A stretch of 64,000 nucleotides of DNA from Paracoccus sp. (in: a-proteobacteria) (GTDB taxonomy: Bacteria > Pseudomonadota > Alphaproteobacteria > Rhodobacterales > Rhodobacteraceae). The stretch covers positions 1-64,000 of the forward strand of contig NZ_JAUNTJ010000014.1 of NCBI RefSeq assembly GCF_030538755.1. Reading direction: 5' to 3'. The notes below the pieces were generated by a model. The model did no database searches. It was not told the DNA's origin and saw only the letters and a program-made list of their open reading frames with translations. Made by a program: the position numbers and the translations under genes. Positions 2,938-43,362 of the stretch are shown here, piece by piece; position 1 is the first letter of the stretch; every line of letters starts with the position of its first letter.

Positions 2938-3000
2938 GGGGGGCTTTCTGCCCCCCGTCGCCAAGGCGACTCCCCCCGAGGATATTTGCAAACGAAAGAC
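2938..3000 (+). repeat. Dispersed repeat family 1, copy a (two hairpins plus ATATTT core)
   Basis: Directly after the corrinoid gene: hairpin GGGGGGC-TTTCT-GCCCCCC (2938-2956), a second hairpin GTCGCC/GGCGAC (2957-2970), then CCCCCCGAGGATATTTGCA and an AACGAAAGAC end. The same layout (GC hairpin, C-run, GGATATTT, purine-rich CAAAGA end) recurs at 6126-6179, 10152-10214 and 30241-30279. Here it could also serve as a transcription terminator, although the T-run expected of an intrinsic terminator is missing. Confidence 0.75.
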
Positions 3001-3111
3001 GGGGCAGGCGGTTTTTTGTCCGGCGGGGCGAAATGCCGCTGTGTGTCGGTGCAATCGCTCTTTCCAAGGCGGCATGTGCGCCCCATATTCATGGCAGGAA
3101 AGGGATTCGTC

Positions 3112-5100: not shown

Positions 5101-5520
5101 ATGACGCCACCAGTTCTGGGAACCTTGGAATCGGCGCTCTATGCCGATGATCTGGATGCCGCCTTGGCCTTTTGGCAGGGCGTGATCGGGCTGACACCGT
5201 TTCAGCAGGTGCCGGGGCGCCACGTCTTTTTCCGCGTCGCCCCCGGTCAGGTGCTGTTGATCTTTCGCGCCGATGTCACCGAAAAGCCCCCTGCCCCCGA
5301 TGCCCGCCTGCCGGTGCCGCCGCATGGTGCGCGCGGGCCGGGACATTACTGCATGGCCGCCGCCCCGGACAGGCTGGACGACTGGCGCGCGCATCTGGAA
5401 CAGCATGGCATCGAAATCGAGGCCGACTTCCGCTGGCCGAACGGCGCACGCTCGATCTATTTCCGCGACCCGGCGGGCAATTCCATCGAACTGGCCGATC
5501 CGGCGATCTGGGACGGCTAG
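5101..5520 (+). CDS. VOC (glyoxalase/bleomycin resistance) family protein
   Basis: 139 residues with two beta-alpha-beta-beta-beta modules: LESALYADDLDAALAFWQGVIGL opens the first and HYCMAA...FRDPAGNSIELADP ends the second. The metal-ligand positions of the family are compatible with His after GPGH and the Glu in SIELADP. Vicinal oxygen chelate proteins include glyoxalases, dioxygenases and drug-binding proteins; the exact activity is not visible here. The stop overlaps that of the convergent cobO gene by 4 bases. Confidence 0.85.
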   Translation: MTPPVLGTLESALYADDLDAALAFWQGVIGLTPFQQVPGRHVFFRVAPGQVLLIFRADVTEKPPAPDARLPVPPHGARGPGHYCMAAAPDRLDDWRAHLEQHGIEIEADFRWPNGARSIYFRDPAGNSIELADPAIWDG

Positions 5521-6128
5521 AACTCGACCCCGCGCTGCGCCTTGACGCCCTGCGCTTTGAAGGGATGCTTGATCTCGGTCATCTCGGTGACAAGATCGGC
5601 GGCCTCGATCAGCAGATCAGGCGCATTGCGCCCCGTCAGCACGACATGAGTCATCGGCGGCTTTTCATCCAGCAGGAAATCCGCCACCTCGCCCGCATCC
5701 AGATAGCCATAGCGCAGCGCGATGTTGATCTCGTCCAGCAGGACCATCTGGACCGAGGGATCGCGGATCAGCTCTTTCGCCTTGTCCCATGCCGCCTGCG
5801 CTGCCGCCGTGTCGCGCTCGCGATCCTGCGTGTCCCAGGTAAAACCCTCGCCCATGACATGGATCTGGCACAGCCCGGCCAAAGGCCCCTCCAGCGCGCG
5901 GCGTTCGCCGGTATCCCACGCACCCTTGATGAACTGCACCACGGCGCAAGGCATCCCCCAGCCGATAGCCCGCAAAATCATCCCAAAGCCCGAGGAAGAC
6001 TTGCCCTTGCCCTTGCCGGTATGAACGATAATCAAGCCTTTTTCAGCGGTCTTGTCCGCCATCATACGTTCCCGCGCCGCCTTGATCTTGGCCATCTTTT
6101 CGCGGTGGCGATCGGTGTCATCCTGCAT
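5517..6128 (-). CDS. cobO: Cob(I)yrinic acid a,c-diamide adenosyltransferase
   Basis: 203-residue CobA/BtuR/CobO-type adenosyltransferase that attaches the 5'-deoxyadenosyl group to the corrinoid cobalt, an essential step to coenzyme B12. The P-loop is GKGKGKSSSGFG near residue 38; family motifs QFIKG, VLLDEIN and VVLTGRNAP are all present. The start ATG at 6128 is unusual: it is the last three bases of a dispersed repeat, and the AAGGA inside that repeat is at normal spacing to act as ribosome site. An upstream gene on the same strand is dctD, 51 bases away. Adenosylcobalamin supply fits the corrinoid enzymes at the left end of the window. Confidence 0.93.
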   Translation of the reverse strand: MQDDTDRHREKMAKIKAARERMMADKTAEKGLIIVHTGKGKGKSSSGFGMILRAIGWGMPCAVVQFIKGAWDTGERRALEGPLAGLCQIHVMGEGFTWDTQDRERDTAAAQAAWDKAKELIRDPSVQMVLLDEINIALRYGYLDAGEVADFLLDEKPPMTHVVLTGRNAPDLLIEAADLVTEMTEIKHPFKAQGVKAQRGVEF

Positions 6129-6179
6129 CTTTGGTCCTTAAATATCCTCGGGGGGTCCGGGGGGCGAAGCGCCCCCGGC
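6126..6179 (-). repeat. Dispersed repeat family 1, copy b (supplies the cobO start site)
   Basis: Read on the minus strand: a GC hairpin (CCGGGGGC / GCCCCC region, 6157-6178), then CCCCCCGAGG followed by ATATTTAAGGACCAAAGATG. The final ATG is the cobO start codon and AAGGA sits 6 bases before it. The last 20 bases are identical to copy d inside nnr (30260-30279). The hairpin abuts the dctD stop codon at 6180, so the element fills the whole dctD-cobO gap and may end dctD transcription while providing cobO translation signals. Confidence 0.8.
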
Positions 6180-7505
6180 TTACAGATAATCCCCGCGCGA
6201 CAGCCCGTATTTGGCCATCTTTTCGTTCAGGGTCCGGCGCGGCAGGCACAATTCGTCCATCACCGACGCGATCGAACCCTTGTGCCGCCGCATCGTGTTG
6301 TCGATCAGCATTTTTTCAAAGCTCTCGACATATTCCTTCAGCGGCTTGCCCTCGGTTGTGGTGGCCTGCTGCGTTTCCTCGCCATCCGCCATCAGCAGCG
6401 ACGCGATCGAGCCGGACCCGCGCCGGTTCTGCAACACCGCCCGTTCGGCGACGTTAATCAACTGCCGGATATTGCCGGGCCAAGGGGCCTGCAACAGTTG
6501 CGCCGCCTCTTGCGCCGTGACCTGAGGCGGTTCGCAGCCGTATTCATCCGCGAATTGTTCGGTCATCCGGGTGAACAGCGCCAGAATATCTTCGCCACGG
6601 GCACGCAGCGGCGGCAGGGTGATCTGCAAGGCCGACAGGCGATAGAACAGGTCGGGCCGCAGGCTGTCTTCGGCCCGACGGCCTTCACCGCGGGCGTTGG
6701 AAATGGCGATGATCCGGGTTTCGGCCGGGGCACCCTGATCGGCGATAAAGGCCAGCAGCCGCGCCTGCAAGGGTTCGGTCAGCGCCTCGATATCCTCAAG
6801 ACACAGCGTCCCGCCGCGCGCTTCCTCGACGGCAGGCAGGCCGTCTTCGACCGGGCCGAACAGGCGTTCCCCCAGCGTGTCGGGCGCATAGGCGGCGCAA
6901 CTGATCGGCACGAACTTGCGCGAGGCGCGCGGGCCGACGGCATGCAGCGCATGGGCGACCAGAGTCTTGCCGGTGCCGGTTTCGCCGTCGATCAGAACGT
7001 GACCGTCAGCCTGCCCCAGATCCAGAATATCTTCGCGCAGGCGTTCCATCACCGGGCTGGCCCCGATCAGTTTCGACATGACCTGCTGACCCTCGGACAG
7101 ATCGCGGCGCAGCGCGCGGTTGTCCAGCGTCATCCGCCGCGACTGCGTGGCCTTTTTCGCCAGTTCGGTCATCCGGTCGGGGTTGAAGGGTTTTTCCATA
7201 AAGTCCATCGCGCCAAGGCGCATCGCCTCGACCGCCATCGGCACGTCGCCATGGCCGGTAATCATGATGACCGGCAGGCCGGAATCCAGCGCCATCAGCT
7301 TTTTCAGGAAGGCCATGCCGTCCATGCCCGGCATCCGGATGTCGGTCACGACAACGCCCGGCCAATCGGCCCCGATTACCTTCAGCGCGTCTTCGGCACT
7401 GGGATAGGTTTCCGTTTCAAACCCCGACAGGACCAGCCACTGGCTGATGGATTCCCGCATATCGGGTTCGTCATCGACGATTGCGATTTTCAACTTGCGC
7501 GCCAT
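6180..7505 (-). CDS. dctD: DctD-type response regulator, AAA+ activator lacking the GAFTGA loop
   Basis: 441 residues: receiver domain 1-120 (phospho-Asp55 in VVVTDIRMPG), AAA+ domain about 143-385 with Walker A GETGTGKT (174-181), and a C-terminal Fis-type helix-turn-helix ending in RRTLNEKMAKYGL. Homologues control C4-dicarboxylate uptake. Two departures from classical sigma-54 activators are visible: the GAFTGA sigma-54 contact loop between LFG (215-217) and GGTL (231-234) is absent, and Walker B reads LCLEDI where LFLDEI is usual. It may therefore act without sigma-54, as reported for Rhodobacter capsulatus NtrC. It pairs with the dctB kinase gene upstream; no dctPQM transport genes are in the window. 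Confidence 0.88.
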   Translation of the reverse strand: MARKLKIAIVDDEPDMRESISQWLVLSGFETETYPSAEDALKVIGADWPGVVVTDIRMPGMDGMAFLKKLMALDSGLPVIMITGHGDVPMAVEAMRLGAMDFMEKPFNPDRMTELAKKATQSRRMTLDNRALRRDLSEGQQVMSKLIGASPVMERLREDILDLGQADGHVLIDGETGTGKTLVAHALHAVGPRASRKFVPISCAAYAPDTLGERLFGPVEDGLPAVEEARGGTLCLEDIEALTEPLQARLLAFIADQGAPAETRIIAISNARGEGRRAEDSLRPDLFYRLSALQITLPPLRARGEDILALFTRMTEQFADEYGCEPPQVTAQEAAQLLQAPWPGNIRQLINVAERAVLQNRRGSGSIASLLMADGEETQQATTTEGKPLKEYVESFEKMLIDNTMRRHKGSIASVMDELCLPRRTLNEKMAKYGLSRGDYL

Positions 7506-10151: not shown

Positions 10152-10214
10152 GGGGGGCCAGCCCCCCATCCGGCATTCGCCGGATTCCCCCCGGGATATT
10201 TGCGGACCAAAGAT
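10152..10214 (+). repeat. Dispersed repeat family 1, copy c
   Basis: Hairpin GGGGGGC-CA-GCCCCCC (10152-10167), hairpin ATCCGGC-ATTC-GCCGGAT (10168-10185), then CCCCCCGGGATATTTGCGG and ACCAAAGATA. The layout is the same as copy a, with different stems but conserved structure, which suggests the hairpins are maintained. It lies between purQ and the ClpP-fold gene, both on the minus strand. Confidence 0.75.
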
Positions 10215-10216
10215 AC

Positions 10217-27749: not shown

Positions 27750-27834
27750 TGGTGCGGGTGGAGGGACTTGAACCCCCACGCCTTGCGGCGCCAGAACCTA
27801 AATCTGGTGCGTCTGCCAATTTCGCCACACCCGC
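27750..27834 (-). tRNA. tRNA-Leu (anticodon TAG)
   Basis: Minus strand, 85 bases including an encoded CCA. Acceptor stem GCGGGTG pairs with CACCCGC; the anticodon loop reads CAGATTTAGGTTCTG with TAG as anticodon; a long variable arm (class II) and T-arm GGGGGTTCAAGTCCCTC are present. It reads CUA and probably other CUN leucine codons. It lies 24 bases upstream of tig on the same strand and could be co-transcribed with it. Confidence 0.95.
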
Positions 27835-29406: not shown

Positions 29407-30966
29407 TCAGCGCAGATCGCGCAGCACACCGGGGATTTGTTCGGGCAGATCGTCCGCGATCAGGCCGGGGCCATGGCGGCGGGCTGCCTGCGCGTGGATC
29501 AAGGTGCTAGTGGCAGCGGCCTCGAGCGGCGGCAGGCCGCGCGCCAGCAGACCGGCAATGATCCCGGCCAGCACATCGCCCGCGCCTGCGGTGGCCAGCC
29601 ACGGAATATCATAGGCCGAATGAATCACCGCGCGGCCATCGGGCGCCGCTATCACCGTATCAGGGCCTTTCAACAGCACCGTTGCACCACAGCGGGCGGC
29701 TGCATCGCGCGCGGCCTCCAGTTTCGAATAGGGCGATGTCATCCGCGCCGTCCATTGCTCCGTGTCGGAGTTTCGCGATCCGTTCAGCCGCTCGGCCAGA
29801 TCGGGGAACAGGCGCGCGAATTCGCCCCCGTGCGGGGTCAGCACGCAATCGCGGTGCAGCGGTTGCGGGTCGCGCGCCCATGCCGTCAGCGCGTCGGCAT
29901 CCAGCACGCAGGGACGTTTGCTGGCCAGCACCGCCGGCACCAGCGCCGCCGCGCGATCCACGCCGCAGCCGGGGCCAATGGCAACGGCGCTGATACGTTT
30001 ATCTGTCAGCAGCATGGCCAGCGCGTCGGCATCATCATCCACCCCGCGCCGCATCAAGGCATCAGGCGGGCCGCTGTGGTCGATCAGTGCCGAACGCGGC
30101 GGCGCGATCGTCACCAGCCCCGCCCCGATCCGCAAGGCGGCACGGGCGGCAAGACGGGCCGCGCCGCCTTGGCCGATGCCGCCCGCGATGATGACGGCAT
30201 GGCCGTGCGTGAACTTGTGACCGTTGCGCTTGGCAAGAGCGCCGGAGCCTCCGGCGGGGATATTTAAGGACCAAAGATGCGGGGCGGGGCGCCAGGGGGT
30301 GATACCGATGTCGGCGATCACCAACTCGCCGCAGACTTCTGGCCCGCGTTCCAGCAGGTGGCCGGGCTTGGGGCTGTCGAAGGCGACGGTCAGGCGGGCA
30401 TGCAGGTCGAAGTCGCCGGATTCGCGCGGCTGGCCCAGAAAGCTGCCGCTGTCGAGGCACAGCCCCGACGGACAATCCACCGCAACAATGCGCGGTCGGT
30501 AAGAGGCCCGGTCTTCGCCGCCACCACCCATATGGTGCAGGATCGCCTGAATCTCGCCCGTGGGTGCGCGGGTCAGGCCGGTGCCAAAGATGGCATCGAC
30601 GTAAACATCGGCATCCTCGCGGCGCAGTTCGGTTTCGGTCAGCGGCAGGATCGGCCCCATCCCGGCCCATTTCCGCCGCATTTCAGCCGCGTCCGGGCCG
30701 GAGCTGTTATCCATCCCCAGCACCCGCATCTGCCAGCCCGCCTGCGCCAGATGCCGCGCGATGACATAGCCGTCGCCGCCGTTATTGCCCGGCCCGCACA
30801 ACACGGTGGCGCGCCCCGGCCTGGGCCAGCGCAGGCGGATATGACCGGCAACGGCGGCGCCCGCGCGCTCCATCAGGGTCAGCCCCGTGACCTGACCGCT
30901 GCTGATTGCGGCGGATTCGGCGGCGCGCATTTGGGCGGTGGTCAGGATTTCGGTGCCTTGCAACAT
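29407..30966 (-). CDS. nnr: Bifunctional NAD(P)H-hydrate epimerase / ADP-dependent dehydratase with in-frame repeat
   Basis: 519 residues. The N-terminal YjeF epimerase domain (about 1-215, GPGNNGGDGYVIARHL at 58-73) interconverts R- and S-NAD(P)HX; the C-terminal ribokinase-like dehydratase (about 250-519, HGHAVIIAGG, and AGAGDVLAGIIAGLLARG near the end) repairs S-NAD(P)HX with ADP. The linker contains residues His230-Gly242 (HLWSLNIPAGGSG), encoded by the opposite strand of a dispersed intergenic repeat, yet the frame is preserved. Divergent from glnB, an arrangement seen in related genomes. Confidence 0.93.
   Translation of the reverse strand: MLQGTEILTTAQMRAAESAAISSGQVTGLTLMERAGAAVAGHIRLRWPRPGRATVLCGPGNNGGDGYVIARHLAQAGWQMRVLGMDNSSGPDAAEMRRKWAGMGPILPLTETELRREDADVYVDAIFGTGLTRAPTGEIQAILHHMGGGGEDRASYRPRIVAVDCPSGLCLDSGSFLGQPRESGDFDLHARLTVAFDSPKPGHLLERGPEVCGELVIADIGITPWRPAPHLWSLNIPAGGSGALAKRNGHKFTHGHAVIIAGGIGQGGAARLAARAALRIGAGLVTIAPPRSALIDHSGPPDALMRRGVDDDADALAMLLTDKRISAVAIGPGCGVDRAAALVPAVLASKRPCVLDADALTAWARDPQPLHRDCVLTPHGGEFARLFPDLAERLNGSRNSDTEQWTARMTSPYSKLEAARDAAARCGATVLLKGPDTVIAAPDGRAVIHSAYDIPWLATAGAGDVLAGIIAGLLARGLPPLEAAATSTLIHAQAARRHGPGLIADDLPEQIPGVLRDLR
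30241..30279 (+). repeat. Dispersed repeat family 1, copy d, inside nnr
   Basis: Hairpin GCCGGA-GCC-TCCGGC (30241-30255) followed by GGGG and ATATTTAAGGACCAAAGATG (30260-30279), the last 20 bases being identical to copy b at cobO. It lies within the nnr coding sequence, antisense to it, in the linker between the two enzymatic domains, and encodes HLWSLNIPAGGSG in the nnr frame. Confidence 0.8.
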
Positions 30967-42924: not shown

Positions 42925-43063
42925 GATGTCTTCCTTTCAGTCTTAATGACCCGCCGTTAACGCATCACCAGCCGGGATATTCCATCTGATGTTCCATCCG
43001 CCCGACCCTTGCGCGGAAACACGCTGCGCCCTATGTTGGGTCTGTTCGGGGCAACCCGGACTA

Positions 43064-43362
43064 TGGACATAAACGCGCAGGTAATAAGCGGATCGGACCC
43101 GGGGGCGGTACCCGGCGGCTCCACCAGATCACCCTCGTTGGGGGAACATGGGGCCGAAACAGGATCGACGAACGTCTAAAGCTGTTTGCTTTGTCTCGGT
43201 GAGCTACCACCGTTATCGGTGCAAAATGTACAGTTGCCAACGACAACCGTGCTCCGGTCGCTCTGGCTGCGTAAGCAGCTCGAAAGACCGAAACTTAAGT
43301 CCTTACGCCTAGCAGCCTAAGGCGGGGTCCGCAGGAACCTGGCAACAGAATCCTGCACCTTT
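43064..43362 (+). ncRNA. ssrA: Two-piece (circularly permuted) tmRNA
   Basis: Permuted alphaproteobacterial arrangement: the acceptor piece comes first and ends in CGGCTCC-ACCA (3' end 43126); after a 23-base intervening segment the coding piece starts GGGGCCG at 43150. The two strands form the acceptor stem with a G3-U70 wobble, the alanine identity element. The tag frame at 43236-43271 encodes ANDNRAPVALAA and stops at TAA (43272). The apparent T-loop is GGCGGTA between CCGGG/CCCGG stems, unlike the TTCGANT consensus. Pseudoknot-like GC segments follow the tag; outer ends are approximate. It rescues stalled ribosomes; the tag is read by ClpXP with SspB, encoded next door. Confidence 0.93.

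Follow-up and report, generated by a model that had tools for sequence, protein, structure and literature searches.

How does a short repeat that is dispersed mostly between genes come to lie in frame inside a protein-coding gene? The question is raised by nnr, which encodes a bifunctional NAD(P)H-hydrate epimerase/dehydratase in a 64,000-nucleotide stretch of Paracoccus sp. DNA (contig NZ_JAUNTJ010000014.1, positions 1 to 64,000; hereafter, the window). The identity of the host protein was assigned from its domains (Pfam YjeF_N at residues 30 to 202 and Carb_kinase at residues 258 to 497) and from a solved Nnr homologue that aligns over residues 17 to 518 (TM0922, PDB 2ax3; E = 2e-46). A reading of the window made from the sequence alone had proposed that an intergenic repeat is translated here between the two enzyme domains. 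This observation is confirmed: positions 30279 to 30241 of the reverse strand encode HLWSLNIPAGGSG (residues 230 to 242) with the frame open, and the peptide lies in the interdomain linker, since YjeF_N ends at residue 202 and Carb_kinase starts at residue 258. In an AlphaFold model of Nnr built with 25 relatives, pLDDT is below 50 across residues 229 to 251. The model contains another low-confidence stretch at residues 399 to 409, and the alignment of several relatives also breaks near residues 398 to 412, a second variable site of the protein.

The 20 bases said to be shared by nnr (30260 to 30279, forward strand) and the repeat preceding cobO (6126 to 6145, reverse strand) are indeed identical, and the identity extends to 22 bases (30258 to 30279 = 6126 to 6147), or to 23 counting the next C. 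Among the 91 copies examined, the longest match between the nnr copy and any other is a 40-bp exact identity with one locus (Table 1). The proposed hairpin layout held only in part: a hairpin is present, but the nnr copy is a short form and does not have the G-tract/C-tract hairpin of the other three copies in the window. Thirteen exact copies of the short form, GCCTCCGGCGGGGATATTT, occur genome-wide (control, 0), and the only intragenic one is that in nnr.

Table 1. Positions in the window of the nnr host gene, the parts of its element copy, and the other element copies
Feature	Position	Strand	Basis
nnr, bifunctional NAD(P)H-hydrate epimerase/dehydratase, 519 aa, host of the element	29407..30966	-	ORF, translation, Pfam, PDB match
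Short-form element copy, antisense to nnr	30241..30280	+	40 bp identical to C17:164676-164715 of the same genome (locus L004)
Element hairpin in nnr, 7-bp stem (30240-30246 / 30250-30256)	30240..30256	+	RNA fold, z = -1.02 versus shuffles
Invariant core GGATATTT of the nnr copy	30258..30265	+	
Variable 3-nt spacer of the nnr copy, AAG	30266..30268	+	
Lineage tag GACCAAAGATG (tag A) of the nnr copy	30269..30279	+	
Codons for Nnr residues 230-242, HLWSLNIPAGGSG, interdomain linker	30241..30279	-	Translation, frame open
Tag A copy in the long form, lying between cobO (5517-6128, -) and the gene upstream of it (6180-7505, -)	6126..6176	-	
Tag A copy whose tag ends in ATA, with a two-hairpin long form before it	10194..10215	+	
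Tag B copy (GATATTTGCAAACGAAAGACG) in the long form, roughly 50 bp 3' of a + gene that ends at 2930	2938..3001	+	

Across the genome (3.01 Mb in 50 contigs, 86.8% complete), the repeat occurs far above control and mostly outside genes. The 22-mer, searched with up to three mismatches, matched 63 sites, seven of them exactly. The pattern GATATTTNNNGACCAAAGA (GATATTT-N3-GACCAAAGA) matched 65 sites exactly and two more with one mismatch; of its 27 two-mismatch matches, 25 proved to be GATATTT-N3-AACGAAAGA, a second tag (tag B). With the two-mismatch matches at C13:67928 and C30:7214 left out of the copy count, the genome total comes to 92, of which 67 copies bear tag A and 25 bear tag B. Controls gave 0 for the 22-mer, the tagged pattern, and the short form, and chance matching was rejected accordingly as a source of the repeat; the reversed-pattern control for the full two-tag set was likewise 0. 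A family signature is evident in these counts: perfect matches give way abruptly to another fixed sequence, and in either case the two fixed blocks are separated by three bases that are free to vary. Those three bases take 22 different forms among the 67 A copies, and the third is a purine in 63.

We tabulated the gene context of 91 copies, excluding the tag B copy of the window at 2980 (2938 to 3001); genes were called by a codon-usage model that had been trained on the window and were not taken from an annotation. The upstream gene lay on the same strand for 71 copies and on the other strand for 17, and it was undetermined for one; three copies lay between divergent genes. Only two were intragenic, in nnr and in the helicase gene hrpB, and both were in frame. 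This is a strong depletion, because called genes occupy 88% of the window. A tag B copy at a further locus (L065) was rejected as intragenic and counted as intergenic because the called start codon falls within the element. Context was also classified for the elements of two relatives, G018 and G020, in which fully intragenic copies numbered 0 of 19 and 0 of 24, respectively. The preponderance of same-strand upstream genes and the scarcity of copies between divergent genes speak for an alternative that we regard as possible but rather unlikely, in which the element serves the host as a 3'-end signal (a terminator or mRNA-end stabiliser) selected site by site, its tags coevolving with a binding factor and its copy in nnr being accidental. 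Selection at 3' ends, however, would leave the 40-bp exact copy in nnr unexplained.

The element has a defined architecture. Its long form reads Gn - loop - Cn - 2 or 3 nt - Cn - tail - GG[A/G]TATTT - 3 nt - tag, and parsing of the 91 copies yielded 59 single-hairpin long forms, seven short forms, and 25 other forms; in many of the latter a second hairpin separates the two C tracts, and some have a different, A/T-containing stem. Among the loci analyzed, the second C tract equaled the G tract in length in 127 of 144 instances (r = 0.80; shuffle mean, 70.8). Of 32 distinct loop-tail combinations, 29 had the final two tail bases complementary to part of the loop (shuffle mean, 16.3), and for the final three tail bases the count was 12 of 20 (shuffle mean, 3.9); none of 5,000 permutations reached any of these values, a significance that is overstated because the copies are related by descent. 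An earlier count on a smaller string set gave 23 of 25 and 12 of 16. The loop-tail statistics cover single-hairpin long forms, to the exclusion of short and other forms, with pairs such as TTTCACA/GTG, TTTTGCA/GCA, CTTCGCG/GCG, CTAG/A, and CCAG/G. Such repeated compensating changes argue for a pseudoknot, and tracts of equal length are suggestive of three strands folded together. Covariation of this kind also means that a structure is maintained, a point in favor of the 3'-end signal.

Ordinary RNA folding did not distinguish the element. Minimum-energy folds of three of four copies were no stabler than those of shuffled sequences (z = -1.02, -0.48, and -1.48), the fourth reaching -2.35, and such a fold was rejected on these scores as the sole distinguishing mark. 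No Rfam 15 family matched any of the four window copies at the gathering score; elsewhere in the window, Rfam identified only an alphaproteobacterial permuted tmRNA (43005 to 43359, +) and a tRNA (27753 to 27834, -). Upstream modules 5' of the hairpin recur in the genome, GCGTCCCGCGA in 10 of the 91 copies and GCCCAAAG in 13, and in one predicted fold GCGTCCCGCGA can pair with the CGGGA that precedes TATTT. Two loci (L179 and L184, positions 1500 to 1706 of each; C17 near 32345 and C22 near 215058) share about 200 bp at 202 of 207 positions; these stretches are bounded by facing element copies, of which the right-hand hairpin differs while the interior is nearly the same.

We compared nnr across the genus, which is probably Paracoccus: named matches at 60% identity come from P. 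indicus and P. sediminilitoris, and the Nnr of P. sediminilitoris recurs among the duplicate rows as that of one genome of the genus, G070. The dehydratase domain, searched against all 124 other genomes available for the genus, found a match in 116 of 125 genomes, this one included, and the resulting alignment of relatives comprised 87 rows (84 distinct proteins, a few rows being partial). The peptide of residues 230 to 242 was present in none of the 87 rows. The closest relative, G018, which is 87% identical to the window over the dehydratase domain and about 82% over nnr, also lacks it; its stretch from ADIG to HK is 57 residues long, compared with 34 in the window. The linker varies in both length and sequence across the genus. 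At the same place, many relatives carry a native motif, WPxFxIPD, and a simple pattern recovered a related motif in 24 of the 87 rows; the LWSLNIP encoded by the element resembles it. This likeness is the one point that favors an ordinary ancestral Nnr linker matching the repeat by accident, an explanation we consider scarcely credible given the 40-bp exact identity with another locus, hairpin included, the absence of the peptide from every relative row, and the content of the relatives' nnr open reading frames, in which GGRTATTT matched once only, in a sequence (L096) unlike the element. Part of the likeness could nonetheless be ancestral. The similarity of LWSLNIP to WPxFxIPD suggests instead that the native linker was probably replaced, with entry perhaps helped by short, partial sequence similarity, rather than interrupted by a clean insertion. 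The nearest sequence with nnr lacking the element comes from a relative of about 82% identity over the gene, too distant for replacement to be told apart from insertion plus deletion.

The second in-frame copy (C17:153126-153147) lies on the sense strand of hrpB, which encodes a DEAH helicase (Pfam HrpB_C, 8e-48; DEAD, 2e-11), and is translated as IASRDGRGPAPAPPGYLQTKDA. hrpB was matched in 123 of the 125 genus genomes. Among 71 genes examined, which came from the 70 or so best-scoring of the 123 genomes, plus G020, and may therefore favor carriers, the element was present at one and the same site in 38 (23 full and 15 partial or altered) and absent from 33, one of which (L301) retains a remnant. 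On a tree of hrpB from which the element columns had been removed, presence and absence required 9 state changes, versus a shuffled mean of 24, and all carriers fell within one 56-row group with 99% support. The pattern requires several losses or gains; it fits, without proving, one old gain followed by several losses. The copies retain the design of the element as their loops, tags, and tract lengths change (from G5/C5/C5 to G7/C7/C7), and a gain of one base in each of three tracts keeps the frame. Two relatives carry further in-frame variants: a tandem pair of elements in G042 (L381) and, in G018 (L288), an element turned into one long inverted repeat that stops just before TATTT.

Tags differ by genome. 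This genome uses GACCAAAGATG, G020 uses GACAAAAGATG (51 copies), and G013 (14 copies) and, for the most part, G028 (21 copies) use GACCGAAGATG. A first family-wide pattern, CCCNNGGRTATTTNNNNNCNAAGA, was dropped as misregistered, with 0 matches in this genome and a few sites each in 48 of 121 genomes; all it revealed was that tags differ from species to species, and the tract pattern was used in its place. Another tag, TGAAGAAGAA, was present in 13 of the 20 genomes searched for it, at 8 to 72 sites in each (reversed control, 0). The hrpB element was present in 12 of these 13 genomes, and it bore TGAAGAAGAA in 11 of the 12, the exception being G023. Of seven other genomes with the hrpB element, six lack TGAAGAAGAA there; in G003, the hrpB copy bears TGAAGAAGAA with one mismatch and no other copy of that tag exists in the genome. 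In G091 and G005, CCAAGATGAA is found in hrpB and also near nnr. The tag in hrpB thus mostly follows the genome-wide tag of the species, an agreement that is confounded by relatedness and that G023 and G003 do not fit. Rewriting in place would be needed if an old, single hrpB insertion carries a tag that mostly follows the genome.

Comparison of whole loci with the closest relative points the same way. Of 20 element loci in G018, 13 aligned with element loci of this genome (G000; 3 kb each, about 86 to 91% identity). Read by eye, the 13 shared places had flanks about 88% identical, and yet the hairpin module differed in seven and the spacer in nine; at one place, tag A in one genome stood opposite tag B in the other. 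Near-uniform species tags over tens of sites, coding sites included, suggest concerted evolution of very short stretches of DNA, a process for which one would not expect ordinary homologous recombination to be responsible. A 3'-end signal sits poorly with these data: the same modules change within the coding sense strand of hrpB, in step with most genomes, and whole hairpin modules differ at shared places between well-conserved flanks. We offer, as a tentative proposal with somewhat less than an even chance of being right, that a hitherto undescribed family of three-strand palindromes of the Rhodobacteraceae (a G tract, a C tract, and an equal C tract, with the loop paired to a tail of 1 to 4 nt in a pseudoknot or triple strand, and a species tag after the variable 3-nt spacer) may actively rewrite the hairpin, spacer, and tag of its own copies genome-wide, those in hrpB and nnr included, as a system of DNA copying or conversion.

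The element extends well beyond this genome. Of 390 genomes sampled across the order, 248 contain the long-form tract pattern, and these represent 109 of 139 genera (control, 0); the number of sites per genome runs from 0 to 97, and a spread this wide within one order is a further point against a 3'-end signal. In a class-wide sample, the pattern occurred in 2 of 385 genomes, this one and, at a single site, G635. Outside the family it was present in 1 of 380 sampled, and the other four family members in the class-wide sample had none. We found no description of the element in open-licence papers, PMC3733652, PMC5107571, and PMC9836097 included, as far as their text was available, and one may be in print elsewhere. 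The genus names do not occur in PMC2267715, nor do Rhodobacter, Paracoccus, Ruegeria, or Roseobacter in the main text of PMC3733652.

The sequence-only reading had also described the repeat as mobile or copy-spread. Copy-spread fits better than mobile; neither an enzyme nor movement was observed. A classical REP mobilised by a RAYT, or a MITE mobilised by a transposase, appears improbable. The copy number, the size, the extragenic 3' placement, and the intragenic cases do resemble REPs as far as these are described in the available text of PMC3733652, and the near-identical stretch between two facing copies at L179 and L184 could be read as a mobilised unit. However, Y1_Tnp (PF01797) was absent from five of the six genomes searched, including this one at 86.8% completeness, with one match in G020 and matches in 5 of 14 controls; GTAG occurred in 4 and CGTC in 24 of the 91 upstream 60-nt stretches; and an unsystematic look revealed no target duplication or terminal inverted repeat.

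Taken together, these results support the original interpretation in its main lines, and the two checks that it had set, on nnr of relatives and on the abundance of the repeat, both came out in its favor. We consider it likely that the 39 to 40 bp in nnr represent, in its short form, a dispersed, REP-like palindromic element of the Rhodobacterales, tolerated in the linker after having been written there in frame and antisense. In the sequence of events we envisage, an element whose usual place is just 3' of genes would have been written, with the tag of this genome, into the hypervariable Nnr linker after the split from the closest sampled relative; native linker sequence would have been replaced, and the resulting floppy stretch of 13 residues would have been tolerated. 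The hrpB copy would be a second, older in-frame member of the same family. Copies may spread and be rewritten at the DNA level by ectopic conversion or by template switching at hairpins or short shared sequence, or else by an unrecognised enzyme, and those lying 3' of genes may double as RNA 3'-end structures. The element offers a clean test bed for the spread of short palindromic repeats without a known transposase: related genomes have element places in common at which hairpin, spacer, and tag differ, and two protein genes carry in-frame copies. Because the lengths of the G tract and the second C tract and the pairing of loop with tail stand in a fixed relation, a specific fold can be put to the test. 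Gene callers and comparisons of protein linkers in the Rhodobacterales will encounter such inserts.

Among known systems, the element behaves, as a kind, like REP and RPE elements. With REPs, as described in the available text of PMC3733652, it shares the character of small, high-copy palindromes that lie 3' of genes, between codirectional or convergent genes, and sometimes in frame; in-frame REPs, including cases in RNA helicase and repair genes, were already known (Di Nocera et al. 2013, PMC3733652), and in the same available text a transposase for the CGTC REPs is not known. It differs from the GTAG and CGTC REPs in that it is as a rule without their end tag, in that its stems are G/C tracts rather than the 8- to 9-bp stems starting with A/T pairs of CGTC REPs, and in its three-tract design with loop-tail pairing, followed 3' of the hairpin by GGATATTT, three variable spacer bases, and the tag of the species. 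Intrinsic terminators offer a second comparison: like them, the element is a G+C-rich hairpin soon after stop codons that is followed by an A/T-rich stretch, and it lies 3' of a same-strand gene in most cases. In contrast to them, it has ATATTT only in place of a long U tract, a conserved tag downstream, and copies in coding sense, as in hrpB. The likeness to the in-frame palindromic elements of Rickettsia, which the sequence-only reading had drawn, holds for behavior, an in-frame repeat tolerated as a linker, and the element is set beside the RPEs by description rather than by sequence. Like the RPEs, as described in the part of the literature available to us, it consists of many dispersed palindromic copies, both intergenic and in frame within protein genes, where they are tolerated as extra or replaced residues, as in nnr and hrpB, with relatives lacking them. 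It differs from the RPEs, as they are described there, in that nearly all copies are intergenic, with two of 91 intragenic, in its length of about 40 to 65 bp, in its G/C/C tracts, and in its free-living host of the Rhodobacterales.
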